A stretch of DNA of 35,773 nt. Source: Helicobacter cetorum. Its GTDB lineage: Bacteria; Campylobacterota; Campylobacteria; Campylobacterales; UBA6016. The notes under the pieces are model-generated. The model saw only the letters and a list, made by a program, of their open reading frames with translations. It was not told the origin of the DNA and ran no database searches. How positions within the stretch are numbered: the first letter of the stretch is position 1; each line of letters opens with the position of its first letter. Made by a program: the position numbers and the translations under genes. The stretch covers positions 1-35,773 of the forward strand of contig DZAX01000021.1 of assembly GCA_022729705.1 (NCBI GenBank). The letters are read 5' to 3'. Of the stretch, positions 588-33,945 are shown piece after piece.

Positions 588-611
588 TGTTATAACCCTT
601 TTTTATTTCAT

Positions 612-15524: not shown

Positions 15525-15586
15525 AATTCGTAGCTCCTAAACCAAACACTTTTTTGCAACGATTCATACATACAAACCAAAACCCT

Positions 15587-15671
15587 CCCCCGCATTTATG
15601 CGGGTAACTTCAGGGGGTGCAGGGACATTTATGTCCTTGCCGCTAAAGACGGGCTTTGCCCGTCTTTAGCG
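15587..15671. repeat. Class I composite hairpin element (A-C-D) at the galT 3' end
   Basis: Module A: CCCGCAT/ATGCGGG at 15589-15604. Module C: GGACAT/ATGTCC at 15623-15636. Module D: a perfect 14-bp stem with TTT loop, 15641-15671, starting CGCTAAAGAC. The galT stop codon (15666-15668) lies inside the D stem. Module B is absent. Confidence 0.85.
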
Positions 15672-16709
15672 TGTAACATCATGTGCAACATCCAACAACC
15701 TCAAAAACTTAGCGCACTCCTCTGGAGCCACGCTATTTATATAGACTCCGCTAAAAAGTTCAAATCCGCCAATCACCGGAATTCTAGGCGCTATCTCTAT
15801 ATGCCACCCATAAAATTCATCTAACTTGTAATAAAAATTTGGCGTTAGCGCATCCCTTTTTGGCGGTGTCGTCTTCAAAAATATGTTATAAGATACGTCT
15901 TTTAGCGCCATACTAATACGCTTTACAGTCGATAACAAAATCCGCGAAAGCTCCAAAAGTGAATCGTCATTTAGCGTTGTAAAGTCCCTGCCGCCCTCTT
16001 TTAACGCCACAATACTCTCAAAAGGCCAAAAAGAAGCGTAAGGGCAGTATGAGACAAAATGGTCGCTCTCCTCTATTATTCTTGTTTTTGTTCTTAACTC
16101 GCTTTTTACTGTATCTCTAAACAAAGAGCGTGAAGTTGACTCAAAATATTTTCTACTCTGCTCTATCTCGGTCAATATATTTTTTGGAATAAACGGCATA
16201 CCGATAATCTGCGTATGCGGGTGAGATATGCTAGCCCCCGCAAGAGCTCCTTGATTTTTAAAAACGGAGACGTACTTAATTCGCGTGTCTTTTTGCAAAT
16301 CAGACACTCTGTCTCTAGCGCTTTTAAGCACCAAAGCAACCTCTTCGGCACTAAGCTCTTGAAACTTCGATGGAAACTTTGGGGTATCTATAATAATCTC
16401 GTGAGCGCCAAAACCATCCATACGCTCGTATGCGCCGTCAAAGTCAGACACTGGATTTTTCTCTATATCAAGAGCGTTGTATTTATTTGGCACAACTCTT
16501 ACTTTCCACCCCGGAGAGTCTTTTTTTGAGCCATAGCCTCTTATCGCATATATCTCCGATGGAGTCTTGTGTTCATTGCCGTACACAAAAGGCGACTCCA
16601 CGTCATATGCCTCAGCAGAGGAGAGCTCAAAATCAGATGGTCTGCGCACCCTGTTTGGAGAGATAATCACCCAATTGTCTTTTAGTTTGTTGTATCTATA
16701 GTGAGACAA
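15666..16709 (-). CDS. galT: Galactose-1-phosphate uridylyltransferase family protein
   Basis: A 347-residue HIT-superfamily nucleotidyltransferase. The active-site motif SHPHTQ has His163, His165 and Gln167, and GAHEIIIDTP (His103) and CPYASFWPFE are conserved. The usual zinc pair CPFC near residue 40 is replaced: Ser39 and Val42 stand where cysteines are expected. No galE or galK is near, so its job may be glucose-1-phosphate/nucleotide-sugar exchange or ADP-glucose phosphorolysis, as for plant GalT-like enzymes; this is inference. It starts at TTG (16707-16709) with AAGGAT from the end of the GH57 gene as ribosome-binding site. Its stop codon lies in a hairpin element. Confidence 0.85.
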   Translation of the reverse strand: MSHYRYNKLKDNWVIISPNRVRRPSDFELSSAEAYDVESPFVYGNEHKTPSEIYAIRGYGSKKDSPGWKVRVVPNKYNALDIEKNPVSDFDGAYERMDGFGAHEIIIDTPKFPSKFQELSAEEVALVLKSARDRVSDLQKDTRIKYVSVFKNQGALAGASISHPHTQIIGMPFIPKNILTEIEQSRKYFESTSRSLFRDTVKSELRTKTRIIEESDHFVSYCPYASFWPFESIVALKEGGRDFTTLNDDSLLELSRILLSTVKRISMALKDVSYNIFLKTTPPKRDALTPNFYYKLDEFYGWHIEIAPRIPVIGGFELFSGVYINSVAPEECAKFLRLLDVAHDVTR

Positions 16710-16710
16710 T

Positions 16711-18762
16711 TTACATATCCTTTATGCAAAGTTTGCCGGCAAAAACAGACTCTTTTGTAAAGTTTTTGTAAAACGCTATCGATACGCCCTGCGCGCACAC
16801 CTCGGCACCTTTTTCATTTTGGCTTACCGTGTTGGTTGGGACAACTATGACGGAGTAGCTATCTTGTAGTTCAAATAAAATCTCTTTTTTATATACGGAG
16901 TCTTTGATGGATAGAGAGCTAACATCGCTTAGTTCCAACGCTTTTGCTCCAAAGAGGGTGCCATTTATCATCAGCGCTTCATAGTCGCAAAAGTGCAGGT
17001 TAAACTCTTCTGCAAAAATAAACTTTATATTGCCGGCATAGTCGTCATGGTCGCAAATAGAGATTTCAAACTCCAAAGCGTCTTTTGTGATAGTAAACTC
17101 TTTTGATACGGTCGCCGCTATCTTAAAATCACCAATATATATGCCGCCGTCTCTCTCAAAATCAGCTCCCCCTTCATCAGAACCCATCAGTGTAAACGGT
17201 TGATTTGCAAAGTCCCCATACTCCCTAAAAGAGCACTCAAAAAAGCTTGACGCGCAAAAATAGTCATCTGTGATATGCTCTATAAACGAGTTTTTTTGAT
17301 ACCAGTCGTAAAATAGATTCTCTTTTATAACCTCGGCACCCTCTAGGCTAATATCGTGAATAGTGTCTATTCCCTCATCCGTCGCCTCTTTTTTGGCTCC
17401 GCTCTCGCTTGCAAAAAACTTTGTGTGATACGCCTCTTGACGTCTTGTAAGGGTGTTTTGATAGTTAAAAAGAGCATCAAAAGAGCTAAAATCACTCATC
17501 TGCGCACCGTTTTTCTCTTCAAAAACAACCATAAAAGCGTCGTTTTTAAGTCTTGCTTCCATGTATCCGTCAAAGTTTTCATCGCTTATCTCAACGCTTT
17601 TTTTGACGCCAATCTTTTTTTCACACGCTATAATGTGTTTGTAGCAGTTGTCTCTAAGATTTGGCAGATATACGCCGCCAAATACGCCGTGCCACAAAGC
17701 GTCGTTTGCCTCTGTTTTTAAAAGAGCTTCGTCAAACTCCGCATTGTTTGCCGCTTTTGCGAGCTTTGAGAGACGGATTGTTTTTTTGTGGATTCTATTT
17801 GACTCTTCGTATTTACTAAAAAAGTTTTTCCAAATACCGCCTTTTACAAACTTATCGGCGTTTACCCCGCCAAATGCCGCAGCTGTGCGATGTTTTACGC
17901 ACTCTATCAAGGATGCGTCATGCGGATTAAGAGACCACTCGCCCATCTCATAGTACGAAACCCCAGGTAAATAAGCGAGTCCCAAAGGTTTTACCGCGTC
18001 AAAATATTCGCTAAAATGCAACGCCTCTATTTTTTCAGAATCCTTTACGCCATCCAAAAACTCTCTTAACCACCCTTTTTCATACACCCACTCGTATGTG
18101 TTTGGCCATAATCCAAATTTTTCACCGTCATCAAAGATAATAGCCGCTTTGTCGATTCTCGCCTCAGACTCAAGCTCGGCTATCGCCGTAGACGCTTTTT
18201 TAAACGGCATTAGATAACGAAGCTGTTTTGAGATAGGAAACACCCCAAGCTTCTCTCCGCCCTCTTCTGTAAAATAATATCCGTTTAGTGAGTTTTCATC
18301 ATATCCAGCGGCTATAAAGTGGTAATCATCGGTGATAATATACTCAATTCCCTGCTCGCAAAGGCTAGCCACAATAGATTCGCTCCAAACCCTCTCGGTT
18401 AGCCATAATCCTCTAGGTTTTGCGCCAAAGTTGACAAACAAAAAGTCGTTCATTTTTTTGATTTGCAACGCCCTATCTCTTGGGGGTATAGCCGCCAAAA
18501 TAGGCTCATAAAATCCACCTGAAAAAAACTCAATCATTCCCTTGTCGTAGCATGATTTTATCAGTGAAAAAAGCTTTTTATCATTGTTTTTTATAAACTC
18601 AAAAAGCCAACCGCTAATATGAAGCGAAAATTTAAACCAATCATCATTTTTTACCGTCTCAAAAAACGGCTTATAGCTCTTTTCTATCGCCTCATAGACA
18701 ACTTTATCAAAATTGTCTATCGGCTGATGAGAGTGAAGACCCAGTAGTAGTTTTGTTTTCAT
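16711..18762 (-). CDS. GH57 4-alpha-glucanotransferase-like enzyme
   Basis: A 683-residue family 57 enzyme resembling the Thermococcus litoralis 4-alpha-glucanotransferase (about 660 residues). The HSHQP motif lies at 10-14 and the nucleophile Glu123 is in WLTERVW. The acid pair is in FDDGEKFGLWP (Asp211/Asp212). DUF1925/DUF1926-type beta domains fill the C-terminal half. It likely disproportionates maltodextrins so that the phosphorylase-like protein and glucokinase can use them. No signal peptide is seen, so it should be cytoplasmic. It is two bases from galT and translationally coupled to it. A class II element lies directly upstream. Confidence 0.88.
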   Translation of the reverse strand: MKTKLLLGLHSHQPIDNFDKVVYEAIEKSYKPFFETVKNDDWFKFSLHISGWLFEFIKNNDKKLFSLIKSCYDKGMIEFFSGGFYEPILAAIPPRDRALQIKKMNDFLFVNFGAKPRGLWLTERVWSESIVASLCEQGIEYIITDDYHFIAAGYDENSLNGYYFTEEGGEKLGVFPISKQLRYLMPFKKASTAIAELESEARIDKAAIIFDDGEKFGLWPNTYEWVYEKGWLREFLDGVKDSEKIEALHFSEYFDAVKPLGLAYLPGVSYYEMGEWSLNPHDASLIECVKHRTAAAFGGVNADKFVKGGIWKNFFSKYEESNRIHKKTIRLSKLAKAANNAEFDEALLKTEANDALWHGVFGGVYLPNLRDNCYKHIIACEKKIGVKKSVEISDENFDGYMEARLKNDAFMVVFEEKNGAQMSDFSSFDALFNYQNTLTRRQEAYHTKFFASESGAKKEATDEGIDTIHDISLEGAEVIKENLFYDWYQKNSFIEHITDDYFCASSFFECSFREYGDFANQPFTLMGSDEGGADFERDGGIYIGDFKIAATVSKEFTITKDALEFEISICDHDDYAGNIKFIFAEEFNLHFCDYEALMINGTLFGAKALELSDVSSLSIKDSVYKKEILFELQDSYSVIVVPTNTVSQNEKGAEVCAQGVSIAFYKNFTKESVFAGKLCIKDM

Positions 18763-18790
18763 AACTTTCGCCTTGTTTTTTTATCATATT

Positions 18791-18868
18791 TTACGCATCG
18801 ACGAACAAAGTCCGTCGATGCTACGCTAGCCGCTATGGCACTAAAGCTAGCCGCCAAAGGCGGCAGAG
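18791..18868. repeat. Class II composite hairpin element, copy 2
   Basis: Hairpin GCATCGACG/CGTCGATGC at 18795-18821 and hairpin CCGCC-AAA-GGCGG at 18851-18863, in the same order and spacing as 612-690. Differences in the stems are matched on the opposite strand (for example G-C to C-G at the fifth pair). It lies just upstream of the GH57 start at 18762. Confidence 0.75.
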
Positions 18869-18907
18869 TTTTTACTAATTTCACAAAAAAGAGCTACTCC
18901 CAAAACT

Positions 18908-19026
18908 CTCCCGCATTCATGCGGGTAGCTAGAGCCACCCATCGCCTGTCGGCGATGGGACCCAGCGGAGGGTGCAGGGACATTTATGTCCTTGCCGCTT
19001 TAAGCGAGCTTTGCTCGCTTAAAGCG
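18908..19026. repeat. Class I composite hairpin element (A-B-C-D) between two GH57 genes
   Basis: A: CCCGCAT/ATGCGGG, 18910-18925. B: CCCATCGCC/GGCGATGGG, 18938-18959. C: GGACAT/ATGTCC, 18978-18991. D: a perfect 14-bp stem with TTT loop at 18996-19026 (CGCTTTAAGCGAGC arm). D ends eight bases before the stop codon of the GH57 gene at 19035. Together with the class II copy it fills this spacer. Confidence 0.88.
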
Positions 19027-19034
19027 TGTTAATG

Positions 19035-21149
19035 TCATATATACCAATCTTCCAAAAACTTCTCATTTACTTCCAGTTGCAATGAACCATAAAGCGGGGC
19101 TTTTTCTATCACTTTACCGCTTTTTTGTATCTCAAACGAAGCCTCAAGCAGCTTGTCACATCCGCATTCAAGACATGATTTTGGCAAAGATAGCTCAAAC
19201 ACCTCGCCTACGCTTGACTGCGTATATCCGCCAATACCCGCTTCCACGCAATCCATTTTATATTTTTTTGATGAAAAAGGAACTTTTATTTTTATCGCCT
19301 TTGAGCTCACAAGTTCTACGCACAAATCATATCCGCTATCAATCAACTCCGCAAATTTTCCGCTAATTGCAAAATATATGTTCTCCTCATCAAACCCCCA
19401 ATACAACTTTTCAAAATGAAATCCACTAGAGTCCATAGCTGAAAACTCAGTGTCAAGGTCAACGCTTCCAGCGCCAAGCCACTCATAAAAATCCGTCATT
19501 TTGCCGTCAATTATAGGAGCTATGTAATTTTTTGGCTTTTGTTTTACTTTTGGAGCTTTTGTTTTGTTGATAGACTCAAAAAGTCTAGCCGGTGGCGCTT
19601 TGCCTATAATTCTAAAAACATTTAGAAGATGTTTTCGAAACAATTCGTCAAATTCGTTTGCCTGTGGGGTATAGTGATCGTCTCCATACCACCAAAACCA
19701 ATCCGAACCCTCAGCCACCATAAGCTCTTTTTGCGCGACTTTTAACGAAGCGGCGTCTAGCGCCCCTTTTACCTCGTCAAAAGCGATTTTTGTTTCTGAC
19801 AAAAGCTCCCACGCCCTGTTTTTTTCCTCATGCCCCATCCATGTCGAAAATGTGCCGTATATCCAGCTTCCCGGTTTTATAGTCTCAATCCGTGAAGATT
19901 CGATATGTTTTGCGGCAAACACTTCGCTAAATGTAAGCGTCTCGCACCAATCTAGCTTTTCAAGCTCCATATAAAGCGTCTCAAAAAAATCTTTTGCGTT
20001 ATGCTCATAATACTCCCAAGCGTTTTCACCGTCAAGAATAATAGGCACAACCGCTTCAAAACCGATAGAGTGATAAAGCTCTTTTAGTCTGCCTATAAAA
20101 TCAGCCACGGACTCTTTTGCGTCTTTGCCTGAATATGTGAAGCCCACAAGGTCACTAATAGCCTTATCACGAAATAAAACGCCGATAGTATTCTCTTTTC
20201 CAACCGTATATCTTTTATAAATATCAAATCTATATCTAGACTCCAAGCTCTTAAAAAGCACGTCTTCATCGGCGCCAACATACTTAACGCCGGCTTTTGA
20301 TAGTAGCTCCAACACCTCTTTGCTCACAGAACCCTCTGAGGGCCAAAAAGTGTTTGGTTTTTTGCCAAAAGTCTCCTCATATTTCGCAATAGACATCTCC
20401 ACATGCACAAGAGCGTCGGAGCGAAAATTTGCAAATATCTTTGGTGTTTGGGCGTTTCTATCCGCCTCTTTTGCGGCGTTTTTGTCTAGTAAAAGCGGAA
20501 GTATCGGGTGATAAAACGGTGTAGTAGCGACTTCTATTTTGCCCTCGTCTTGAAGCTTTTTGTAAAACGGTATTATCTTCCCGAGAAATGCAAAAAGCTC
20601 GGCAAACAGCTCAGCTTTATCAAACTCTGAAAAGTTTTGGGCTTTTTTGATTAGATTTTGAACGATTGTAGAGTTTTCCCTTAGCGCATTAGAACACCAA
20701 GAGAGTAAAAACAAAACCTCTAAATCCAAAATTTCATCAGAGCCGATAGAGTCCGCAAAGCTCTGCGTATCTTTGTACGACGTCTTTTTGGCGTGCAACT
20801 GTCTATATCTTGCAAGCGGATGTATCATTGTTTTTAGATTGGCAAAAAAAAGCGTCTCACAAAGAGAGAGCTTCTCTTTTGGCGTCAAAAGAGAGACCTC
20901 TTTTTTGACGCTAGATAAAAAACTATCGTTTATAAACCCTTTTTCATACTCTTCAAGCTGTTCTATTAGCGAGGGAACAAGATTAAAGGTCGCCTTTATG
21001 CTCTTAAACTTGGACAGATAGTAAGGCAACTCATAGTAGTCCTTAATGGCGTGCAAAAAAACCCACGGCATTTTGTACTCATTTTGCATATCGTCTTTGT
21101 AATAAGGCTGGTGCATATGCCACAAAAATGCTAAGCGAATTTTTTTCAT
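19035..21149 (-). CDS. GH57 alpha-amylase/amylopullulanase-like enzyme
   Basis: A 704-residue family 57 glycoside hydrolase of the amylopullulanase-like branch. HMHQPYY is at 11-17, Glu272 is in FWPSEGSVS and Asp373 in ILDGENAWEYY, the two predicted catalytic acids. The last 150 residues form a beta-rich, carbohydrate-binding-like domain. It probably debranches or hydrolyses stored alpha-glucan in the cytoplasm; no signal peptide is seen. I start at ATG 21147-21149 rather than seven codons earlier: AGAGG lies just upstream, and the first residues then match the family (MKKIRLAFLWHMHQP). It follows the nucleotidyltransferase fusion by two bases. Confidence 0.85.
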   Translation of the reverse strand: MKKIRLAFLWHMHQPYYKDDMQNEYKMPWVFLHAIKDYYELPYYLSKFKSIKATFNLVPSLIEQLEEYEKGFINDSFLSSVKKEVSLLTPKEKLSLCETLFFANLKTMIHPLARYRQLHAKKTSYKDTQSFADSIGSDEILDLEVLFLLSWCSNALRENSTIVQNLIKKAQNFSEFDKAELFAELFAFLGKIIPFYKKLQDEGKIEVATTPFYHPILPLLLDKNAAKEADRNAQTPKIFANFRSDALVHVEMSIAKYEETFGKKPNTFWPSEGSVSKEVLELLSKAGVKYVGADEDVLFKSLESRYRFDIYKRYTVGKENTIGVLFRDKAISDLVGFTYSGKDAKESVADFIGRLKELYHSIGFEAVVPIILDGENAWEYYEHNAKDFFETLYMELEKLDWCETLTFSEVFAAKHIESSRIETIKPGSWIYGTFSTWMGHEEKNRAWELLSETKIAFDEVKGALDAASLKVAQKELMVAEGSDWFWWYGDDHYTPQANEFDELFRKHLLNVFRIIGKAPPARLFESINKTKAPKVKQKPKNYIAPIIDGKMTDFYEWLGAGSVDLDTEFSAMDSSGFHFEKLYWGFDEENIYFAISGKFAELIDSGYDLCVELVSSKAIKIKVPFSSKKYKMDCVEAGIGGYTQSSVGEVFELSLPKSCLECGCDKLLEASFEIQKSGKVIEKAPLYGSLQLEVNEKFLEDWYI

Positions 21150-21151
21150 AG

Positions 21152-23653
21152 TTACGCCTCTTTCGACCATTCTATAATCTTACCTGCAAACTCGTTGAAT
21201 ATAGCTTCTCCATCGCTAGCCTCTGCGGCTTGAACGTAGATATTTAGATGATCTGAATGTTGATCTGGAAGCATTAAAATCCAATCATTTTTCTTTATCA
21301 TAATCTTGACGCCATCCACAAAAGACGCCTCTTTACCCACAGACGCTTCCATAAACTTACGCATCATTTTACCTTTAAGATTTGAGGCGCACGGCACTTT
21401 TTCGTAGTGAAAATAAAAAGATGTTAGTGAATCTTTAATCTCTTGAAGCGATTTGTTAGAGCCTGAGAGCATCTCAAGAATTTTGATACTCGCAAAAATA
21501 GCGTCGTTGCTATACGCAAACTCACCAAACGCAAAATTACCGCTTAGGTTTGCTATAAGGTCATACTCTTTGAGTTTATTCGCCTTTGCGCCACTTAGCT
21601 TGCCTCTTTCGATAGTTAGATTTTCAAATTCATTATCCAAAAAGTCTGGAGCACTTACAGGAAGGTAAACTTTTGATTTTTGATTTTTTGAGTTCATATC
21701 AAATAGTTTCAGCACCGTCAAAAGTTGCATTCGCGAGTCAAGAAGCTCTCCCGCGTCGGTAATCATCTCCAGCTTCTGACCGTTAGGGTATATGATATAC
21801 GCCATATTCATGCCAAGGTGTTTTACTATTTTTGACAAATCCTCTCTAGCTTTTTCTATTAGAGCCGGAAGTCTATTTAATTTTTTATCGTCTGCGTATG
21901 CGTTTAGTATGATATTGTCCACATTTAGAGAGGTCAAAATCTCAGGATATATATCAGAGGTTGAACCAAATAGTAAGTCAAGTGCTACTTTTGGTTTTTT
22001 GACTTTTATCGCGTCCGTGTTAAGCGCTTTTAACACCGCTTTTTTATATTTTTCTTTTAGGTTTGCTTTTTCACTTACCTGACCTATTTCGTCAAAGTTT
22101 ACCCGTCTAAAACTCTCTCTAAAAAACACTCTTTCGCAACTTTTTTCCGTATCGGTGTCTATATGCAGACCTTCGTGCGTAAAAAACAAAATCTCAGTAT
22201 TTTGCTGATTTACAACAGATTGCCTAAAGTGTACGCCCGCCACTACGTCTTTTGCCTCTTTTATGCCAAATCTTGCTATGTTTGACGGGGTAATATGTAT
22301 ATCCACAACATTAACGCCGGAAGAGAGTAGTCCTGAGAAAAACGCCCTTTTTAGCATTTGTGAAGATTTGTGATAGTCTCTTGAAAGATACACTTTACTT
22401 CCAACTGGAAGTAAAGAGCCAAACGACTCCGCAAGCTTAATAGCCATTTCACATGAGAGTTCTACGTTTGTTCTGCCGCTTACTACGCCGCCCTCGAAAA
22501 TTGAGTTTTTGTATTTGTTGCCCCAAACTATGTTGTTGCTTACAATACTAGCGGATTCTACTATTTTATCAGGCCATACCGTCACGTCGTTTTCAAACGA
22601 TACAGAATCGCCTATCTCGCACCCCTCGGCAAGTATAAGCCCTTTTGTTACTTTCACTTTTTTACCTATTTTGTTTTTTGAGCAGATAACGCTATTGTGA
22701 ACTCCGCATTTCTCGCCAATTTCTATCTCATCCCATATAGCGCTATCTTCCAAAACGCTGTTTTTACCGACTATAGTTTTATCGCCCACAACGCAATTGT
22801 CTAGCTTTACGCCATCCTCGATAACGCTGTTTTTACCGACTACAACTATCCCCTCTATCGAAGCCGACTCAGATACTTTGGCTCCCTCTTCAATATAAAG
22901 CGTACCGGTATTTCGCTCTATTTTTTCACCTCTAATACTAAGAGCGACTTTGCCGCTTAGCAGGTCTTTTTGGACTTCTCTATAGCTCTCAGGATTGCCG
23001 ACGTCTCTCCAATAACCCCTAACAGAGCACGCCCAAAGAGTAACTCCCGCTTTCATCAAAGATGGAAACAAATCTTTTCCAAAGTCATAGTTGGTGCTTT
23101 CCGGAATATGCTCTAAAATGCTCGGGTGCAAAATATATATACCCGTGTTTATCGTGTCAGAAAACACCTCACCCCAGCTCGGCTTCTCCAAAAATCTCTG
23201 TATTTTACCCTCAGGCGACGATATAACTACGCCAAACTGCAACGGATCGGCAACAGGGGTTAAAGTGATGGTAAGAAGTGACTCTTTTTTCTTATGGAAC
23301 GCTATAATCTCGTTTAAATCAAAGTCAGTCACAAGGTCGCCGCTTACGACGATAAACTCTTCGTCCAAAAATTTTTCAGCGCACTTAACCGCTCCTGCTG
23401 TGCCGTAATCATTATCGGGAAGCATATACTCTATATTTACGCCAAACTCACTTCCGTCTTTAAAGTAATCTTTGATAACTTCTGGTTTAAAGTATAATAA
23501 GATAACAATATCTTTAATTCCAGCGTCTCTCACTTTTTCAATGATGTGTTGCATCATTGGTCTATTTAAAATTGGGAGCATCGGCTTTGGTACAGAGTGT
23601 GTAAGTGGTTGTATCCTCGTTCCAAATCCGCCCGCCATTACTACCGCTTTCAT
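21152..23653 (-). CDS. Sugar-phosphate nucleotidyltransferase fused to a degenerate phosphohexomutase domain
   Basis: An 833-residue three-part protein. Residues 1-235 are a nucleotidyltransferase (MAGGFGTRIQPLT, KPMLPI, SGDLVTDFD). Residues about 250-380 are a left-handed beta-helix of hexapeptide repeats. Residues about 385-833 are a phosphoglucomutase/phosphomannomutase-like domain. This last part lacks the TASHNP phosphoserine loop (AGVHFRQS at 472-479 instead), the DGDGDR metal loop (YPNGQK near 622-627) and the C-terminal RPSGTEP loop (LPDQHSD). Similar fusions in cyanobacteria and other phyla are annotated as mannose-1-phosphate guanylyltransferases. The nucleotide and sugar cannot be read here; the locus suggests glucose 1-phosphate. 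A promoter precedes it. Confidence 0.82.
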   Translation of the reverse strand: MKAVVMAGGFGTRIQPLTHSVPKPMLPILNRPMMQHIIEKVRDAGIKDIVILLYFKPEVIKDYFKDGSEFGVNIEYMLPDNDYGTAGAVKCAEKFLDEEFIVVSGDLVTDFDLNEIIAFHKKKESLLTITLTPVADPLQFGVVISSPEGKIQRFLEKPSWGEVFSDTINTGIYILHPSILEHIPESTNYDFGKDLFPSLMKAGVTLWACSVRGYWRDVGNPESYREVQKDLLSGKVALSIRGEKIERNTGTLYIEEGAKVSESASIEGIVVVGKNSVIEDGVKLDNCVVGDKTIVGKNSVLEDSAIWDEIEIGEKCGVHNSVICSKNKIGKKVKVTKGLILAEGCEIGDSVSFENDVTVWPDKIVESASIVSNNIVWGNKYKNSIFEGGVVSGRTNVELSCEMAIKLAESFGSLLPVGSKVYLSRDYHKSSQMLKRAFFSGLLSSGVNVVDIHITPSNIARFGIKEAKDVVAGVHFRQSVVNQQNTEILFFTHEGLHIDTDTEKSCERVFFRESFRRVNFDEIGQVSEKANLKEKYKKAVLKALNTDAIKVKKPKVALDLLFGSTSDIYPEILTSLNVDNIILNAYADDKKLNRLPALIEKAREDLSKIVKHLGMNMAYIIYPNGQKLEMITDAGELLDSRMQLLTVLKLFDMNSKNQKSKVYLPVSAPDFLDNEFENLTIERGKLSGAKANKLKEYDLIANLSGNFAFGEFAYSNDAIFASIKILEMLSGSNKSLQEIKDSLTSFYFHYEKVPCASNLKGKMMRKFMEASVGKEASFVDGVKIMIKKNDWILMLPDQHSDHLNIYVQAAEASDGEAIFNEFAGKIIEWSKEA

Positions 23654-23679
23654 TAATCCCCTTTGTGTTTCATTTGTAC

Positions 23680-23709
23680 TTTATAGTGGCACTTTTTAAC
23701 TGAATTCAA
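23680..23709 (-). promoter_or_regulatory. Candidate sigma-70 promoter for the nucleotidyltransferase-GH57 pair
   Basis: On the minus strand, TTGAAT (23704-23709) is followed after 18 bases by TATAAA (23680-23685), with a purine-rich AAAGGGG ribosome-binding site before the ATG. It is the best-formed promoter in the window and splits this pair from the gap-to-second-pyruvate-kinase run. Confidence 0.6.
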
Positions 23710-23757
23710 CATTAAAAACACAATAAAAACAGAGCTTTCACAACACTTTTATAATTA

Positions 23758-25563: not shown

Positions 25564-25575
25564 CCTGTTGTCCTC

Positions 25576-27504
25576 TTAAAGAAATGATGTAGCCGATTGC
25601 AATGTTTTAAAAAACAGTCTCTGTCTAGCCCTAAGGTATGATTTTGCCTCGTCCATCTCGTGACCGCCCAGAAGAATTGGGTATATCTTTTTACCCCAGT
25701 TTCTTTCGCATAGTTTTGCGATATTAAGCGCGTCGGTCATATATTGCGGCGTAATAAGTAGGTATATAAGGTCTACACCCTCAAATTTTGTCACAACCTC
25801 AAGCGTTTTTTCATATCTATCGGCCATGGCGTCGCCGATAATATCCACAGGATTATTTCTTGACCAGTTTGATGGCAATATATCGTCAAGCGCTTTTAGC
25901 TCTTCGTCGTTTAGGGCGTATAGTTTTCTGCCGTGGTCTACGATGTAATCAGTTAGTATTGTAGCCGGACCGCCCGCATTTGTAACGACAAGAATATTGT
26001 TTACTTCGTTTAGAGGGTTTAATAAAAGAGCCTCTATATTATCCTCTATCTTTGCGCCGACAGACTCTATAAGTCCCTTAAACATATCGTAGTTGCCGCT
26101 TAGGTTGCCTGTGTGCGAAAAAGCCGCTTTTTTACTCTCAGCCGATTTTCCCGTTTTAAAGATATACACTTTTTTCTTACTATTTCTAAGCGCTTTTAAA
26201 AACTCTTTACCGTTTTGAATACCCTCGGCGTAGATGGAGATGTATTTGCACGCCTCTTCTTCGTTTAGCATATTGACCATTTCGGCAAAATCAAGGTCAA
26301 CCATATTTCCGCAAGAAACAAGATGCGAAAAGCCGACTCCCGCATCGTATGCTTTGTCCATCAATGCAGACAGCACGGCGCCCGATTGAGATAGCAACGC
26401 CAACTCCCCGCTTTTTAATCCGCCTATTCCAAATGTTAGGTTTAGGTTTTTTGAACCCTCCATGTAACCAAGACAATTTGGTCCTATCGCGCTAAAATTG
26501 TGCTCTTTTGCAAGCTGCGCAATAATCTCTTCCGAATCGTAATCACCAACCTCTTTAAAGCCGGCTGAGATAATAATAAGGTTTTTGATATTTTTTTTGA
26601 TTAGCTCTTTTGTGATGTCTACAACAAATTTTGAAGGTATCGTGATAACAGCCGTGTCAATATCGCCCTCTATCTCCGCAACACTTGCAAAAAGCGGCTT
26701 ACCAAACAGTTCTCCGCCTTTTGAGTTCACAAAAAGCATATCACCGCCATAACTCAGGGAGTTTTTGGCTATAGCGTAACCAACTTTTGTAGGGTCTGAG
26801 GATGCGCCGATAAGAGCCACTCTATCGTTTTTAAAGAAGTTTGGTCTATTTTGTCTAAGTTTTTTTTCTTCTTTTGGCTCGCCTCTTTTTATTCTTGCGT
26901 CTACTATTTTTAAACCATCGTTTGTGATAAGCGCCGGATTAAAGTCAAGCTCTATAATATCAGGATTTGCTTTTGCAAAGTTTTGGATAGAGCGGACAAA
27001 ATCTACCGCCATATCTATACCGTATTCAAAGCCTCTAAAACCGTCAAACACTTTTGATATTTTGGTAAGCCTAATAGCTCTTTTTATCTCTTCGTCATCT
27101 GCGTAAATATCGATAAAACAAACGTCTTTGTACATCTCAAGAAAAACGCCGCCTTTACCAAATACTATGGTTTTGCCAAAAATATCATCGTCCACAAGTC
27201 CTGCGTACACCTCAAGCCCACTTAACATCTCAACCACGATAAATTTATCGCTATCATCAAGCGTAACGCCTTTTGCGGCTATATTTGCGATTATCTCGTC
27301 TTTGGCTTTTAATAGAGCTTCGTTGGAACTGATATTTAGCTTAACAGCTCCAAATTCGCTTTTATGAACCACTTTTTCAGACTCTATCTTTATAACGACA
27401 GGAAAAAAATCTACGCTTGGAGTCTCGTTTAACCCAAAAGAGGCAAACTTTGGGGTAGGCATATCGTAGCTTGTAAGCATTGAGTATATTTGCGATTCAG
27501 TCAT
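25576..27504 (-). CDS. Acetyl/acyl-CoA synthetase, ADP (NDP)-forming, beta-alpha domain order
   Basis: A 642-residue member of the NDP-forming acyl-CoA synthetase superfamily, which converts acyl-CoA, ADP and phosphate to acid, CoA and ATP. The ATP-grasp part comes first (about 1-215, HKSEFGAV at 47-54, VFGKGGVFLE). Then come the CoA-binding Rossmann domain (VALIGASSDPTKVGYA near 229) and the ligase domains with phospho-accepting His464 in AFSHTGNLSG. I chose the ATG at 27502-27504, with AAGGAAG upstream, over an earlier ATG inside the preceding gene. Lying in a glycolytic run, it could produce acetate and ATP from pyruvate-derived acetyl-CoA, as in fermenting archaea. Confidence 0.88.
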   Translation of the reverse strand: MTESQIYSMLTSYDMPTPKFASFGLNETPSVDFFPVVIKIESEKVVHKSEFGAVKLNISSNEALLKAKDEIIANIAAKGVTLDDSDKFIVVEMLSGLEVYAGLVDDDIFGKTIVFGKGGVFLEMYKDVCFIDIYADDEEIKRAIRLTKISKVFDGFRGFEYGIDMAVDFVRSIQNFAKANPDIIELDFNPALITNDGLKIVDARIKRGEPKEEKKLRQNRPNFFKNDRVALIGASSDPTKVGYAIAKNSLSYGGDMLFVNSKGGELFGKPLFASVAEIEGDIDTAVITIPSKFVVDITKELIKKNIKNLIIISAGFKEVGDYDSEEIIAQLAKEHNFSAIGPNCLGYMEGSKNLNLTFGIGGLKSGELALLSQSGAVLSALMDKAYDAGVGFSHLVSCGNMVDLDFAEMVNMLNEEEACKYISIYAEGIQNGKEFLKALRNSKKKVYIFKTGKSAESKKAAFSHTGNLSGNYDMFKGLIESVGAKIEDNIEALLLNPLNEVNNILVVTNAGGPATILTDYIVDHGRKLYALNDEELKALDDILPSNWSRNNPVDIIGDAMADRYEKTLEVVTKFEGVDLIYLLITPQYMTDALNIAKLCERNWGKKIYPILLGGHEMDEAKSYLRARQRLFFKTLQSATSFL

Positions 27505-27515
27505 TATATCTTCCT

Positions 27516-28718
27516 TTATTTGTTGCAAGATTTGAGAAGAGCTTTTTTGCATTTGTGAGTTAGAGGCCATTTATACATCAGGCTAACCGCTTTTTTTGCA
27601 AAAAATCCAAGTAGTCCGCTAAGTCTGATGCCATACACTACACCAACCGTAAAGTAACCGCCCAAAGCCACAAGCATTCCTGGTAAACCAAACTCTATTT
27701 TTTTAAGCTCTTTACCGTGTTTTAGAGCCACTATATTATAAGCCGCCACATCTGCGCCAAACTCAGCCACCATAGCGGTTGGAGCCAGCGTCTCACCTTT
27801 TGTGTTGACAACCTCGGCGCAATCGCCGATTGCAAAGATATTAGAAAAACCTTTTACTCTAGAAAATTCGTCAATTTTTAGTTGCCCTCTTGGGTTAAAC
27901 TCAAAACCTTCGCCTTCTATTTTTCTAACCTCTACGCCGCCCGTCCAAATCATAAAGTTCATATTTATCGTTTTACCGCTTCCCAAATGAACCTTGTTCT
28001 CTTGTACTTCTAATATCTTATCGCCGGTTATAATATTTACGCCAAGCTCTTCCAGTCTTTTTTTGGACTTTCGTACAAGATAACGGTCAATTCCGGGTAA
28101 AATAGTCTCTGAGGCTTCAATCAGATGCACGGCGACTCCGCCGCACGCATAACCGCCGACCGCAAAGAACTTGCTCGAATACTCCGCCATCGCCGCCGCA
28201 ACCTCCACACCAGAGAGTCCGGCTCCGCCTATTACTATATTAAAGTTTGGGTTTAGCTCGCATACGCCCTCAGACTCTACTTGTTTGTATATAGCCTGTT
28301 CAAATTTTTGCTTAAACTCAAAAGCTCTTTTTAGGCTCTTGACCCCGTGCGAATGCTCGGCAAGCCCCTTTATAAAGCTAGGAAAATACGTCCTTGAGCC
28401 TATCGCTATCACAAGATAGTCATAATAAAGCTCTTCGTCAAAATTTGTTATAAGCTTATTTTCACCGAGCTCGACTCTTACAATTTTGCGTTGCAAAAAA
28501 GTAACATTTGTCTCTCTTTCAAAAAATAGCGTCACAAGACTAACACTGATGTCTGTTGTTGTGGTTTTATTAGCTATATAGTCATATACGTCCGTTTGCA
28601 GATAGTGATAAGGTCTTGCGTCTACAACGGTAACTTCTAAATCCTTATTTTTTGCAAGAGTCTGAGCTGCCCTTATGCCGCCGTATCCAGATCCAGCGAT
28701 AATTACTTTTTTCAACAT
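27516..28718 (-). CDS. NADH dehydrogenase type II-like FAD/NAD(P) oxidoreductase
   Basis: A 400-residue two-dinucleotide-fold flavoprotein: FAD loop IAGSGYGGIRAA at the N-terminus, a middle IGGAGLSGVEVAAAMAEY NAD-binding loop, and FAIGDCAEV for FAD ribityl contact. A hydrophobic/basic C-terminus (LLGFFAKKAVSLMYKWPL) probably attaches it to the membrane. This fits NDH-2 (NADH:quinone oxidoreductase); the active-site cysteine pattern of sulfide:quinone reductases is not obvious. In this operon it could reoxidise NADH from the GAPDH step. It starts four bases after pfkA ends. Confidence 0.78.
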   Translation of the reverse strand: MLKKVIIAGSGYGGIRAAQTLAKNKDLEVTVVDARPYHYLQTDVYDYIANKTTTTDISVSLVTLFFERETNVTFLQRKIVRVELGENKLITNFDEELYYDYLVIAIGSRTYFPSFIKGLAEHSHGVKSLKRAFEFKQKFEQAIYKQVESEGVCELNPNFNIVIGGAGLSGVEVAAAMAEYSSKFFAVGGYACGGVAVHLIEASETILPGIDRYLVRKSKKRLEELGVNIITGDKILEVQENKVHLGSGKTINMNFMIWTGGVEVRKIEGEGFEFNPRGQLKIDEFSRVKGFSNIFAIGDCAEVVNTKGETLAPTAMVAEFGADVAAYNIVALKHGKELKKIEFGLPGMLVALGGYFTVGVVYGIRLSGLLGFFAKKAVSLMYKWPLTHKCKKALLKSCNK

Positions 28719-28721
28719 TGT

Positions 28722-29684
28722 CTAGCCTAGTAGTTTTGTGGCTAATTTGAGCAGATCCGGCTTTATCTGATATTTTTGAGAGTTTATATAGTCTATACTC
28801 ACAAAATCAAACTTTGAATCTCTGGATATTATGACGTTTTTATCATCTGGTTTTAGCATCAGCTTATCTATGGCGAGTCTCGCAAATTCAAAAGCCATCA
28901 ATCTATCAAAAACGCTTGGGCTTCCACCTCTTTGTATATGCCCAATCGTACTTGCTCTTGAGTCCATACCTATCTCTGTTTTAAACCATTCGCATACTTC
29001 GTCGGTTCTACCGCTTCCCTCTGCTACTATAGCCAAAATATAGCTTCTACCCTCTTTTATCTCTTTTTTAAATCTCGTTTTTAGCGTTTCTAAATTTGTT
29101 TGCATCTCAGGGATAATAACCATCTCCGCTCCGCTTGTAAGAGCCGATACAAGGGCCAAATAACCGCAATCTCTTCCCATTGTCTCAATCACAAACGCTC
29201 TTTTAAAGCTAGCCGCCGTATCTCTAATGTCATCTATTGACTCTCTAATGACATTTAGAGCCGTATCCACGCCAAGGCAGTAGTCGGTGCCAAATATATC
29301 GTTGTCTATCGTAGTTGGTATACCGACAAAATTTATCCCAAAATCGTGATAAAACTGTCTCATAGCGCGAAATGAGCCGTCGCCGCCAAGTACTACAAGC
29401 TTGTTAATATCTTTGGCTTTTAGATTTTCATACGCCGTCTTTCTATGCTCTATTTCAAAAAAACGTTTTGAGCGAGACGAACGAATCACCGTCCCACCTC
29501 TATGGATAATGCCGCCCACTCTCTCGTGCGTAGCCTCTTTGATGTCTCCGTCTATAAGCCCCTCAAGTCCGTCATAAATGAGATACGACTTAAGCCCAAG
29601 TTCAAAGCCGTACTCAACGAACTGCTTTATGGCCGGATTCATACCTGCGGCGTCGCCGCCCGAACACATTATGGCTATTGACAT
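28722..29684 (-). CDS. pfkA: ATP-dependent 6-phosphofructokinase
   Basis: A 320-residue PfkA, which phosphorylates fructose 6-phosphate to the 1,6-bisphosphate. The nucleotide loop GGDGS (100-104) has Gly103, and TTIDND (124-129) has catalytic Asp127. Both point to ATP rather than pyrophosphate as donor (pyrophosphate enzymes typically have GGDDS and PKTIDND). The first loop is SGGDAAGMN, with Ala13 where Pro is common. ETMGRDCGYLAL and HIQRGGSPS are intact. Many Campylobacterota lack this step, so it is the marker of a working glycolytic direction. RBS GGGGAT lies before the ATG. Confidence 0.93.
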   Translation of the reverse strand: MSIAIMCSGGDAAGMNPAIKQFVEYGFELGLKSYLIYDGLEGLIDGDIKEATHERVGGIIHRGGTVIRSSRSKRFFEIEHRKTAYENLKAKDINKLVVLGGDGSFRAMRQFYHDFGINFVGIPTTIDNDIFGTDYCLGVDTALNVIRESIDDIRDTAASFKRAFVIETMGRDCGYLALVSALTSGAEMVIIPEMQTNLETLKTRFKKEIKEGRSYILAIVAEGSGRTDEVCEWFKTEIGMDSRASTIGHIQRGGSPSVFDRLMAFEFARLAIDKLMLKPDDKNVIISRDSKFDFVSIDYINSQKYQIKPDLLKLATKLLG

Positions 29685-29693
29685 ATATATCCC

Positions 29694-30962
29694 CTATTGT
29701 TTATTATTCAATTTCTCATAAAGCTTTACTTTGCCAAACTCTACGCCCGGTTGGTCGTATGTGTTTATACCAAAACGAGCTCCAGCCAACGCCGTCAAAA
29801 GTTCAAAGTAAAAAATCAACGCTCCAATACTCTCTTCATTTAAGGAGTCAAGCTCTATTACGTCTACTTTTACGCCTCTTTCAACAAGCGTCTCCAATGT
29901 CGCGTCACACTGTGAATTTAAAAGTTCGGAAAAAGGAAGCTCATTTACAAAATCTGTTTTTTCTAGATTTTTCAAGCTAACGCTTGGTATTTTTGAGTTA
30001 TTTTTGAAGTTTTTTACCCTTACAAAAGTAACCGTTTTATTTTTTGGCCCCTCTATGATAAGCTGTAGAAACGAGTGTTGGTCAACAGAACCGATAAGGC
30101 CTATTGGAGTAAGCCCAACGCTTTTGCCCTCGGCATCTATTTTACCAAGACTCTCAGCCCAAAGCTGAATATACCAAGCCGTTAGTTTTTCAAGAGAGCT
30201 TGAGTATGAAAAAAGCACGTTTATAGGAAAAACTTCATAGTTATCTGCGTAATATGCAGCTTTTCGTATCATATCTTTTTCATTGCCGTCAAAAAAACTT
30301 TTTTTGAGTTTTGCGGCGCCAAGTAGTAACTTTCTAATATCATAACCCAAAATCGCAAGAGGAAGGAGACCCACGGCGCTAAGAACTGAAAATCTACCTC
30401 CAACGTTTGGAGCTATATAAAATCGCTCCAACGAAAGATCTGCGCCAAAACTATCAAGCGGCGACCCCTCATCCGTTACAAGCAAAAATCTTTTTTTGAG
30501 TTTTGGATCTTCTTGTCCGTCAAAAAACTTATGGATTACAAGCTTTGCAAGACTCGTAGTCTCTACAGTTGAGCCTGATTTTGAAATCATAATAAATATT
30601 GTGTCTTTAGTGCTAACGCCTTCAAGCGACGAATTTATCTCATTTGGATCGCAATTTTCCAAAAAGATTAGCTTTGTATCATTTCTATTTTTGGTGTGTT
30701 TTAGCGCCGTGTCTATCGCTTTTGTACCAAGAGAGGAGCCGCCTATGCCCAATACGACAAGATTTTTTATCTTGCCTTTATAGACGGCGTTGTTTGTCAG
30801 GATAAATCTATATATTTTATCCATAGTGTCGCCGGAGCTGGTCGGAAGAGCATAAAAGCCAATTTTAGCCTGCTCCTCTTTGATTTTGCCCAAAAGATTG
30901 TCTACAACCTCGTCTGAAACTTTCATCTCAACGTCTTCAAATAAGAGCCTGCTAGAAATCAT
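29694..30962 (-). CDS. pgi: Glucose-6-phosphate isomerase
   Basis: A 422-residue sugar isomerase converting glucose 6-phosphate and fructose 6-phosphate. The phosphate-binding loop SKSGSTVET, GRFSVLSAVGLLP, EGKSVGLTPIG and the DQHSFLQLIIEGP segment with catalytic residues are present. It is shorter than the E. coli enzyme (about 550) but within the range of compact bacterial forms. It begins one base after the gap stop codon; the ribosome-binding GGGGGAT comes from the end of gap. Confidence 0.93.
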   Translation of the reverse strand: MISSRLLFEDVEMKVSDEVVDNLLGKIKEEQAKIGFYALPTSSGDTMDKIYRFILTNNAVYKGKIKNLVVLGIGGSSLGTKAIDTALKHTKNRNDTKLIFLENCDPNEINSSLEGVSTKDTIFIMISKSGSTVETTSLAKLVIHKFFDGQEDPKLKKRFLLVTDEGSPLDSFGADLSLERFYIAPNVGGRFSVLSAVGLLPLAILGYDIRKLLLGAAKLKKSFFDGNEKDMIRKAAYYADNYEVFPINVLFSYSSSLEKLTAWYIQLWAESLGKIDAEGKSVGLTPIGLIGSVDQHSFLQLIIEGPKNKTVTFVRVKNFKNNSKIPSVSLKNLEKTDFVNELPFSELLNSQCDATLETLVERGVKVDVIELDSLNEESIGALIFYFELLTALAGARFGINTYDQPGVEFGKVKLYEKLNNKQ

Positions 30963-30963
30963 T

Positions 30964-31959
30964 TTATCCCCCTATATATTTTGCCATATCGACGAGTCTA
31001 GATGTGTAACCCCATTCGTTGTCATACCAAGCGACCACTTTTACCATATCGCCGTCAACTACCTGTGTAGAATCAGGCACAAAAATCGCACTAAAAGTAG
31101 AACCGATAAAATCAGATGAGACTCTCATATCTTCGTCATATTCTACAAGACCTTTGTAGCCGTTTTGTGACGCTTCTTTAAAAATTGCGTTAATTTCATC
31201 TTTCGTAACGCTTCTTTTTAGGAGGCAGCTCATATCCACAATAGATACGTCAGGAGTTGGAACCCTTAGTGAGTAACCGTTTAGTTTGCCGTTTAACTCA
31301 GGGATTACTTTGCCGATAGCTTTTGCGGCTCCGGTACTTGTAGGTATGATATTAATAGCCGCCGCTCTCGCCCTTCTTTTGTCTTTTGGGTGCTTGACGT
31401 CTAAGATATTTTGGTCGTTTGTATAGCTATGCACAGTCGTCATAATCCCTTTTTGGATACCTACTGCATCGTGGAGTATTTTTGTGATTGAACCTAGGCA
31501 ATTGGTTGTACAAGAAGCGTTGGAGATGATGGTCTCACCTCTGTACTCTTGATGATTTACGCCGTATACGTAAGTCGGGGTGTCGTCTTTTGCGGGAGCC
31601 GACATCAATACTTTTTTTACACCGCCTTTTATGTGTGCAAGAGCCAAATCCATTGAGAGAATAGCTCCCGTGCACTCTATGACAAGTTCTGCGCCGCAAG
31701 AGCCAAAATCTACGTTTTTCGGATCCCTGTCTGAAAATATTTTAACTGTGTCTTTACCTATCTGAAAAGTTTTGTCGTCTATAAGTTTTACGCTATCAAA
31801 TACGCCGTGCACAGAGTCATATTTTAATAAATATTCAAGCATATCAGGCTTCATTGTCGCATTTACCGCTACAAGCTCTATGTCGCTTCTTGCGGCTATT
31901 ATTCTTGCCGCTATCATTCCTATTCTTCCAAAACCATTGATTGCTACTTTTAATGCCAT
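30964..31959 (-). CDS. gap: Glyceraldehyde-3-phosphate dehydrogenase (type I)
   Basis: A 331-residue NAD(P)-dependent enzyme forming 1,3-bisphosphoglycerate. INGFGRIG opens the Rossmann fold; catalytic Cys150 is in SNASCTTNC, and HSYTNDQ, RARAAAINIIPTSTGAAKA and WYDNEWGY are intact. After the second strand the sequence reads AVNAT, with Ala34 where NAD-specific enzymes carry Asp, a pattern of GapB-type enzymes that accept NADP. It is the first gene of a six-gene glycolytic run, with TAGGAG before the ATG and a TATGAT box about 40 bases upstream. Confidence 0.95.
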   Translation of the reverse strand: MALKVAINGFGRIGMIAARIIAARSDIELVAVNATMKPDMLEYLLKYDSVHGVFDSVKLIDDKTFQIGKDTVKIFSDRDPKNVDFGSCGAELVIECTGAILSMDLALAHIKGGVKKVLMSAPAKDDTPTYVYGVNHQEYRGETIISNASCTTNCLGSITKILHDAVGIQKGIMTTVHSYTNDQNILDVKHPKDKRRARAAAINIIPTSTGAAKAIGKVIPELNGKLNGYSLRVPTPDVSIVDMSCLLKRSVTKDEINAIFKEASQNGYKGLVEYDEDMRVSSDFIGSTFSAIFVPDSTQVVDGDMVKVVAWYDNEWGYTSRLVDMAKYIGG

Positions 31960-31995
31960 ACTACACTCCTATTTTTCAAGTTATGCCCTAATAGT

Positions 31996-32001
31996 ATCAT
32001 A
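31996..32001 (-). promoter_or_regulatory. Candidate -10 box for the gap-pgi-pfkA run
   Basis: TATGAT on the minus strand about 40 bases before the gap ATG. The -35 region is not clear. Confidence 0.4.
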
Positions 32002-32042
32002 TTTAAATCTTTTGAGGAACACTAATATCCATTTTATTCTCA

Positions 32043-32065
32043 CATTTTGGGCAAAGCCCAAAATG
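32043..32065. repeat. Solitary hairpin with GGGCAAAGCCC core
   Basis: Perfect 10-bp stem CATTTTGGGC/GCCCAAAATG with AAA loop upstream of the gap promoter. The GGGC-AAA-GCCC core equals that of the D modules of class I and II elements, read on the opposite strand to class I, but with a new outer stem. Confidence 0.6.
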
Positions 32066-32164
32066 AGGTCTTCAACGCAAGAGCTCACGCAACTAGTCGC
32101 TTTCACGCTACGCAAGATACGTTTTTATTGCCTATCTTAAGCGCTTGCTTATAAAACCTTTACT

Positions 32165-32282
32165 CTCCCGCATTTATGCGGGTAGCTAGAGCCACCCATA
32201 GCCTGGCCGGCGATGGGACCCGGCGGGGGTTGTAGGGACATTCATGTCCCTGCCGCCAAGACGGGCTTCGCCCGTCTTGGCG
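32165..32282. repeat. Class I composite hairpin element (A-B-C-D) at the pyk 3' end
   Basis: A: CCCGCAT/ATGCGGG, 32167-32182. B: CCCATAGCC/GGCGATGGG, 32195-32217, one mispair. C: GGGACAT/ATGTCCC, 32235-32250. D: a perfect 13-bp stem with TTC loop, 32254-32282 (CGCCAAGACGGGC arm). It ends eight bases before the pyk stop codon. Confidence 0.88.
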
Positions 32283-32290
32283 CATAACAT

Positions 32291-33727
32291 TTAGTATATA
32301 TTACAAACCGTTTTTGCGTGCTGTATATCGGACGCTCTCATCACCCTGATAAGATTTGTGGTGCCTTGTTGTCCTGTTGGGTAACCTATTGTTACGATAT
32401 ATGTGCCGCTCTCGCTCATCACTCCAAGTTCAAGCGCCCTCATTGTAAATTCGCACAGCATTCTATCGGTACTCTCGTGCTCGCTTAACACAAATAGCGG
32501 CTTAACACCCCACACAATAGCGAGTCTTCTAAAAACCTCTATCGAATGAACAGGAACCAAAATTTCAGGCTTTGGTCTGTATTTTGAGAGACTTCTTGCG
32601 CTTCCGCCGCTTCTTGTAAAGGCTATAAGCGCATCAGGCTCCAAATCCTCAGCCATTCTATTTGCAGCTATCGCTATCGCTTCGTCTGGATTGTGGATTT
32701 TGTCCAAGTTTCTATAAAAAGGATAGATTTTTTCAATTTCACAAATTGTCTCGTTTAGAGCTTTTATCGCCTCTATTGGGTATTTGCCCACAGTAGTCTC
32801 ATCGGAGAGCATAACCGCATCCGTACCATCCAAAACGGCATTTGCTATATCGCTCACCTCTGCTCGCGTCGGGTATGGCGAGGCTATCATCGAGGTTAGC
32901 ATTTGCGTGGCGGTTATCACAGGGATACCTTTGCGATTTGCGGCGTTTATTATCTCTTTTTGCGCCGTAGGCACTTTTGAGAGTCCAAGTTCAACGCCAA
33001 GATCCCCTCTTGCAACCATAAGTCCATCGGCCGCCTCAACTATTGTCGCTAGGTTATTAACAGCTTCCGATTTTTCTATTTTTGCAAATATCGGGCAGTT
33101 ACCGCCAAATCCGGCTACAATTTTTTTTGCCTCTTCTATGTCTTCACGCGATTTGATAAACGATACAGCCATCATATCAACGCCTATTTTTACGCCAAAT
33201 TCCATATCTTTTATATCTTTTTCAGTTATCGCCGAAATTGGAAGATTAGCGTTTGGAAAGTTGACCCCTTTTTTGCTCGTCAAATCACCGCCGATTACTA
33301 TTTTTGTTTTTACAACGCCGTTTGAGTTGTCAAAAACTTCGCATCTGATACAGCCGTCGGCTAGATATATAAGGTCTCCGCTTTTTAGAGATGGGAGAAT
33401 ATGCGGGTGGTTAATTGTAACGCCGTGTTTATCGTCAAAACCCGGTTTTTCATAAAAGCTAAGCGTATCGTCAGGCTCAAGCACCATAACACCGTCAACC
33501 TCTCCAACTCTAATTTTTGGTCCCGATATGTCTTGCAACACCGCTACACACGCACCAAGCTTATCGGCCACTTTACGAACTTTTAGTAAATTCGCACCGT
33601 GATACTCATGCGTAGAGTGCGAAAAGTTAAATCTAAAAACATTTACACCAGCAAGAATCAGCTTTTCAATCATCTCCTCAGAATCTGTCGCAGGACCAAC
33701 CGTCGCAACTATTTTTGTTTTTCTCAT
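32291..33727 (-). CDS. pyk: Pyruvate kinase
   Basis: A 478-residue canonical pyruvate kinase making pyruvate and ATP from phosphoenolpyruvate and ADP. FRFNFSH, QDISGPKIRVG, FAKIEKSEAVNNL, VARGDLGVELG, TATQMLTSM and MLSDETTVGKYP are all intact, and the C-terminal regulatory domain (about 350-478) is complete. This contrasts with the N-extended homologue at 23758. AAGGAAA precedes the ATG, and two overlapping TATGAT boxes (33768-33778) may drive it. It lies between two class I hairpin elements and so may be transcribed on its own. Confidence 0.95.
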   Translation of the reverse strand: MRKTKIVATVGPATDSEEMIEKLILAGVNVFRFNFSHSTHEYHGANLLKVRKVADKLGACVAVLQDISGPKIRVGEVDGVMVLEPDDTLSFYEKPGFDDKHGVTINHPHILPSLKSGDLIYLADGCIRCEVFDNSNGVVKTKIVIGGDLTSKKGVNFPNANLPISAITEKDIKDMEFGVKIGVDMMAVSFIKSREDIEEAKKIVAGFGGNCPIFAKIEKSEAVNNLATIVEAADGLMVARGDLGVELGLSKVPTAQKEIINAANRKGIPVITATQMLTSMIASPYPTRAEVSDIANAVLDGTDAVMLSDETTVGKYPIEAIKALNETICEIEKIYPFYRNLDKIHNPDEAIAIAANRMAEDLEPDALIAFTRSGGSARSLSKYRPKPEILVPVHSIEVFRRLAIVWGVKPLFVLSEHESTDRMLCEFTMRALELGVMSESGTYIVTIGYPTGQQGTTNLIRVMRASDIQHAKTVCNIY

Positions 33728-33767
33728 CAGTTATTTCCTTATATTTTGAACTTTTCAAACAATAGAA

Positions 33768-33778
33768 ATCATATCATA
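33768..33778 (-). promoter_or_regulatory. Candidate double -10 box for pyk
   Basis: Two overlapping TATGAT sequences on the minus strand, 41-51 bases before the pyk start codon and next to the class I element at 33792. No clear -35. Confidence 0.4.
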
Positions 33779-33791
33779 ATGTAAAATCACT

Positions 33792-33945
33792 CTCCCGCAT
33801 TCATGCGGGTAGCTTTAGGGGGTCGCAAGGGACATTTATGTCCTTTGCCGCTAACGGGAGCTTTGCTCGTGTTAGCGTGTAACATTTGAAATTTTGTAGG
33901 GACATTTATGTCTCTGCTGCTAGTGCGGGCTTCGCCCGTACTAGC
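33792..33945. repeat. Class I composite hairpin element with tandem C-D units at the GT35 gene 3' end
   Basis: A: CCCGCAT/ATGCGGG, 33794-33809. First C: 33830-33843; first D: 33849-33877 (one G-T and one G-G pair). Second C: 33898-33915 (one G-T); second D: 33919-33945 (12-bp stem, TTC loop, one G-T). The phosphorylase stop codon TAG (33941-33943) lies in the second D stem. The C-D unit has been duplicated here and module B is absent. Confidence 0.85.

Follow-up and report, generated by a model that had tools for sequence, protein, structure and literature searches.

A MITE family with a conserved, structured interior in sulfur-oxidising Campylobacterota

Hairpin clusters in the window and the spread of the family

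The window, that is, the whole stretch of 35,773 nucleotides that was analysed, contains four clusters of hairpins in the order A-(B)-C-D. The initial annotation had reported these clusters, and all four were recovered, with their hairpins at the reported positions, as matches to a covariance model built from 13 copies. The boundaries drawn there did not hold, as the true element is larger and its right end runs on to ...GYRTAACATCA(G), a terminal inverted repeat whose matching left end lies approximately 20-46 nt before A in intact relatives. The B hairpin was present as described, although the B at 32195-32217 carries one mismatch (CCCATAGCC/GGCGATGGG). The D arms were complementary at 14 of 14 positions at both 15641-15671 and 18996-19026. 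The features are as follows.

15586-15682, plus strand: copy 1 (A, core, C, D and right terminal repeat, without B); cmsearch 88.8 bits, sequence
15589-15604, plus strand: copy 1 hairpin A, CCCGCAT-TT-ATGCGGG; sequence
15619-15640, plus strand: copy 1 hairpin C, GCAGGGACAT-TT-ATGTCCTTGC; sequence, predicted fold
15641-15671, plus strand: copy 1 hairpin D, 14-bp perfect arms and 3-nt loop; arm pairing, predicted fold
15670-15681, plus strand: copy 1 right terminal inverted repeat CGTGTAACATCA, counterpart of the CTGAYNTTACGCAC ends in intact relatives; sequence
18907-19037, plus strand: copy 2 (A, B, C, D and right end); sequence, fold, cmsearch match at 18935-19037
18910-18925, plus strand: copy 2 hairpin A; sequence
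18938-18959, plus strand: copy 2 optional hairpin B, CCCATCGCC/GGCGATGGG; sequence
18996-19026, plus strand: copy 2 hairpin D, 14-bp perfect arms; arm pairing
32164-32293, plus strand: copy 3 (A, B with one mismatch, C, D and right end); sequence, fold, cmsearch match at 32192-32293
33791-33888, plus strand: copy 4 (A, core, C, D and right end); sequence, fold, cmsearch
33889-33945, plus strand: partial second C-D unit 3' of copy 4, with AGGGACATTTATGTC repeated; sequence
607-689, minus strand: divergent copy of a related subfamily (A hairpin, TAGCTTCAG, D and TAATAT end, with C replaced); cmsearch E 2.3e-9, sequence
18783-18867, minus strand: divergent copy of the same subfamily as 607-689, with its A end toward copy 2; cmsearch E 1.6e-8, sequence

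The optional B hairpin was present in 14 of the copies counted among loci of the same genome, and a GTAG is located 3' of hairpin A. Inverted pairs of elements with facing A ends, each pair thus bounded on both sides by a right-type inverted repeat, were observed at 18783-19037 of the window and at five further loci (L009, L028, L361, L378 and L408). Another dispersed repeat, TTCTCACATTTTGGGCAAAGCCCAAAATGAGGTCTTCA... with a CTCGCG-rich stretch after it, lies at 32040-32105 of the window and often stands just before hairpin A, as it does to the left of A in L027, L358, L366, L381 and L353; it could form a composite unit with the element.

The genome-wide search proposed in the initial annotation gave at least 148 places in the genome of the window, with E-values from 5e-27, and the clusters are therefore a dispersed family rather than a few unrelated hairpins. 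Among the matches listed, the C motif GGGACATTNATGTCC had 79 exact sites in this 2.19-Mb genome, while a reversed control pattern had none, a frequency far beyond chance. Across the order, 65 of the 299 genomes and 23 of the 81 genera contained model matches with E below 1e-4. In the GTDB contig collection, at least 119 stretches matched an exact 23-base core pattern, which matched none of the viral contigs. Every named record among the matches listed belonged to Campylobacterota (Sulfurimonas, Sulfuricurvum, Sulfurovum, Sulfurospirillum and unclassified relatives). The elements are a large family of small non-coding mobile elements spread among sulfur-oxidising members of this phylum. Strand bias relative to replication looked weak in a count by eye of 66 matches in one complete genome (G005). 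The literature searched, mainly open-access papers, contained no description of the repeat family.

Covariation of the stems and orientation to host genes

The interior of the element consists of the A hairpin, an unpaired AGCTTTAGGGGG, the C and D hairpins, and the optional B. D arms had been described as unlike between copies and yet paired, and this was borne out quantitatively: in 99 copies drawn from many genera, aligned to the structure although most of the loci had been found by the exact core pattern and not by pairing, 97.4% of stem cells were paired and 21 of 24 stem pairs had changed on both sides. The covariation score of the same copies was 0.447, compared with 0.158 after shuffling and at most 0.077 when partners were slid, so that the proposed covariation check gave a strong signal across genera. 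Predicted folds were far more stable than those of shuffled sequences (z -4.6 to -7.8). On the A-first strand, G-T pairs exceeded A-C pairs by 53:20 without the dominant D pair and by 69:18 in the genome of the window, counts that ignore shared ancestry and come from a model whose detection tolerates G-T. This excess suggests that the A-first strand is probably under selection to fold in single-stranded form, whether RNA or DNA.

The compensatory changes could also have arisen by mutation instead of selection, through correction of the palindromes by template switching and without any function of a folded strand. Such a process would fit the near-perfect palindromes formed by the arms and the way in which D pairs within one genome switch between TA, GC, AT and CG with few intermediates. 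However, it would be expected to erase the G-T wobble pair near the D loop, which is conserved (68/98), and both the excess of G-T over A-C on one strand and the conservation of the unpaired AGCTTTAGGGGG speak against it, so we regard this origin as rather unlikely.

The initial annotation had further stated that all elements share one orientation relative to transcription, with D adjoining the stop codon of the upstream gene, and had suggested that they might stabilise transcript ends, act as processing sites or divide the locus into units. Both positional statements were correct for the four copies in the window, but not for the family, which is oriented at random: same-strand flanks divided 28 vs 22 in the genome of the window (p=0.48) and 42 vs 51 in a set drawn mostly from other genera. 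The family therefore lacks the fixed orientation to flanking genes expected of a host 3' UTR element and shows no orientation bias by which it could partition a locus into transcript units. Genes that extend into the D end commonly have their stop codon 3-4 bases within the element, and D adjoins stop codons because the terminal repeat reads TGATGTTAC and itself supplies TGA. As had been claimed, a T-run was absent from all four copies, both right after D on the plus strand and after A on the minus strand, which differs from an intrinsic terminator. Rfam gave nothing over the gathering cut-off in the window, with only chance-level matches in two copies. A role as host cis-regulatory RNA, whether as 3'-end stabilisers, terminators or RNase processing sites for the flanking genes, would agree with the stable folds, the covarying stems and the position of D against stop codons, but we consider it improbable given the random orientation, the dispersed and mobile copies, the missing T-run and Rfam match, and a stop adjacency that the TGA of the terminal repeat explains.

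Intact elements in other genera and the candidate transposase

Outside the genus of the window, the intact unit measures approximately 117-143 bp (paired ends lay about 117 or 143 bp apart) and carries 14-bp terminal inverted repeats, e.g. CTGACCTTACGCAC ... GTGCGTAAGGTCAG. Over all copies, the element ranges from about 95 to 145 bp and carries no transposase gene. The paired ends were often bordered by exact 7- or 8-bp duplications (TGATTTAA, TAGATAA, TTAAATAA and TGAATCA), and in these genera 28 7-mers were common to the left and right flanks, compared with a mean of 14.7 and a maximum of 23 after shuffling. A search with joined flanks identified one exact empty site: genome G029 reads AGAT-TGAATAA-[118 bp]-TGAATAA-CTTAGG, while its congener G108 reads AGAT-TAAATAA-CTTAGG. 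The empty site indicates insertion of a transposon and identifies the family as a MITE.

A different MITE of approximately 258-267 bp has the same 14-bp ends (L107, L110, L112 and L116, in G029 and G222; L110 with the 8-bp duplication TTAAATAA), suggesting that one transposase probably serves several unrelated MITEs. Another pair of ends in G029 (C6), 2,990 bp apart, was rejected as a transposon, as it encloses ordinary genes, and no transposase was found with the solo inverted repeats of G222.

The candidate source of the transposase is an autonomous IS of 1111 bp (L290), with ends CTGACCTTACGCAA and CTGACCTTACGCAC, which codes for a 353-aa transposase scoring 333 bits, over the cut-off of 250, with the NCBIfam model NF049921 (IS701 family). 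The route to it led from an ISPepr1-like relative through a protein search, in which it was a weak match. A relative (L297) has CTGACCTTACGCAC at both ends and lies in a genome, G189, that also holds a MITE copy (L055) with this same end sequence. The IS701-like ends and the MITE ends match at 14 of 14 positions. Genomes with IS701-like genes, assigned by sorting the matches by hand, more often contained the MITE (7/14 vs 58/285, p=0.016). An internally deleted IS copy (L301) is flanked by a TTAATAA duplication, while none was seen around the two IS copies that are full-length and have intact ends; in the genome of the window, a 66%-identical transposase fragment remains. Judged from these sequence features, an IS701-like transposase probably moves the MITE in trans. 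This group agrees with the IS701 family in its transposase, but the duplication here is 7-8 bp and the IS 1.1 kb, whereas IS701 members usually duplicate 4 bp (PMC2266710).

Mobilisation by ISPepr1-like IS4 elements would account for the length of the duplications, since the ISPepr1 subgroup of IS4 duplicates 7-8 bp (PMC2266710), and this subgroup also shares AT-rich targets and CT ends resembling those of the MITE. These elements are common in the order (33/299), with ends CTNAACTTTCGCAC that resemble MITE ends and with 7-bp duplications of their own. Their ends differ from the MITE ends by two to four mismatches, compared with the complete 14/14 match of the IS701-like ends, the inverted repeat of ISPepr1 reading TTTCGCAC where the MITE has TTACGCAC, and we therefore give this source little credence. 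A search of 23 carrier genomes with Pfam DDE_Tnp_1 gave a truncated ISPepr1-like relative as the only IS with MITE-like ends, and the PDB held no sequence relative of the ISPepr1-like transposase. Full-length ISPepr1-like IS4 elements of approximately 1.5 kb, several with 7-bp duplications, were found at L254, L256, L262 and L281; such elements occur widely in Campylobacterota, and some complete genomes have multiple copies.

That the elements are REP-like, i.e. short palindromes moved as single-stranded DNA by a Y1 (RAYT) tyrosine transposase, had been offered as an option with a check for such genes. In its favour are their hairpins, intergenic sites and copy number, the fold's strand polarity, and the likeness of the D core GGGCTTTGCCC to the GGGCTTTAGCCC palindromes at the C72 RAYT; the genome also has three Y1_Tnp genes, of which two are RAYT-like. 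However, the element flanks none of the three Y1 loci, whose own flanking repeats differ, and inverted repeats with target duplications are not products of Y1 transposition, which mostly refutes this reading for the intact copies and makes it very improbable overall. REP/RAYT palindromes of the GTAG and CGTC families, for which Sulfurovum is listed among the carriers, are likewise numerous and intergenic (PMC3733652), but each is a single palindrome of 20-40 bp tagged GTAG or CGTC, while the present element has three to four hairpins, terminal inverted repeats and target duplications. One RAYT-like gene (L043:1381-2103, G000:C72) lies beside a type I restriction specificity gene and has GGGGCTTTAGCCCC-like palindromes both within its reading frame and at either end of it; the second (L042:1360-2400, G000:C17) is bordered by repeated GGGTGTCAGGCACTCTTTTATG.

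Taken together, short length, absence of a transposase gene, high copy number, inverted repeats, target duplications together with an empty site, and an autonomous IS that shares these ends bear out the suggestion of a mobile, MITE-like unit, so that the initial annotation was confirmed in part in its observations and partly supported in its interpretation. We estimate a probability of approximately 0.8 that these are MITE copies which an IS701-like DDE transposase moves in trans and whose interior is a cassette of covarying stems.

The left-truncated subfamily and the role of the interior

Inverted repeats and target duplications characterise the copies of other genera, but most copies in the genome of the window have lost the left repeat. 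Here the conserved unit starts sharply at TCTCCCGC, and the left linker was found in 20 of 92 copies, compared with 4 of 92 in the control. Flank-shared 7-mers were at chance (10 vs 8.6), and searches with fixed and free offsets detected no target duplications above chance in this genome. With the left repeat lost and the flanking 7-mers at chance, these copies may not be ordinary MITE insertions. The left-truncated subfamily still numbers approximately 100 or more copies, and the retention of right end and interior alongside loss of the left end is more than old decay by itself can explain; the amplified subfamily is either now immobile or moves in some other way. Tandem C-D arrays with a spacing of about 67-87 bp (L011, at G000:C16:15915-16110; L353, on G000:C41; and L021, at the end of G000:C22) indicate that the right half is capable of multiplying in situ.

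In the mechanism that we propose, an intact MITE of approximately 117-143 bp with 14-bp ends and no transposase of its own would be acted on in trans by the DDE transposase of the 1.1-kb IS with the same ends, and its insertion would duplicate 7-8 bp of AT-rich target. The cassette between the ends, made up of hairpin A, the single-stranded AGCTTTAGGGGG, hairpins C and D and the optional B, would fold on the A-first strand, as RNA or single-stranded DNA, as the G-T excess suggests. The random orientation to host genes makes a role of the cassette for the element itself more likely than one for a host operon; the cassette may act in mobility, in replication-associated single strands or in taming the element's own transcript. 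More tentatively, and with less than even confidence, we suggest that the MITE carries its own strand-specific RNA or single-stranded DNA module (A, AGCTTTAGGGGG, C and D), selected across genera and aiding its spread or tolerance, and that in the genome of the window this module, without the left repeat, reached more than 100 copies by a route other than two-ended transposition.

The closest working analogues are the BOX and RUP repeats of Streptococcus pneumoniae and MITEs in general. BOX and RUP are also small, interspersed, intergenic repeats with predicted RNA structure, and BOX is modular with an optional middle module, boxB, of which B appears to be the counterpart (PMC3049150); no sequence relation was seen, and the present family differs in its empty site, its autonomous IS with identical ends and its conservation across many genera. 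With bacterial MITEs (PMC10969869) it shares short length, non-coding sequence, inverted repeats, target duplications, AT-rich intergenic insertion, an IS with matching ends and stable transcript folds. In those elements usually only the ends are stressed, whereas the present family has kept three or four separate internal hairpins, with compensatory changes, and a single-stranded motif in many genera.

The family is a new one among MITEs, with an unusual interior whose structure is deeply conserved. MITEs are normally viewed as two ends around dispensable filler, while in this family the filler is the most conserved part: across 23 genera it has three hairpins that show compensatory changes, and a single-stranded motif that hardly varies. 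The family can thus serve to test whether RNA or single-stranded DNA structures under selection are part of mobile elements themselves. For Campylobacterota, which include many uncultured sulfur oxidisers, it provides an abundant repeat family and a candidate transposase that are useful for annotation and for the study of genome plasticity.
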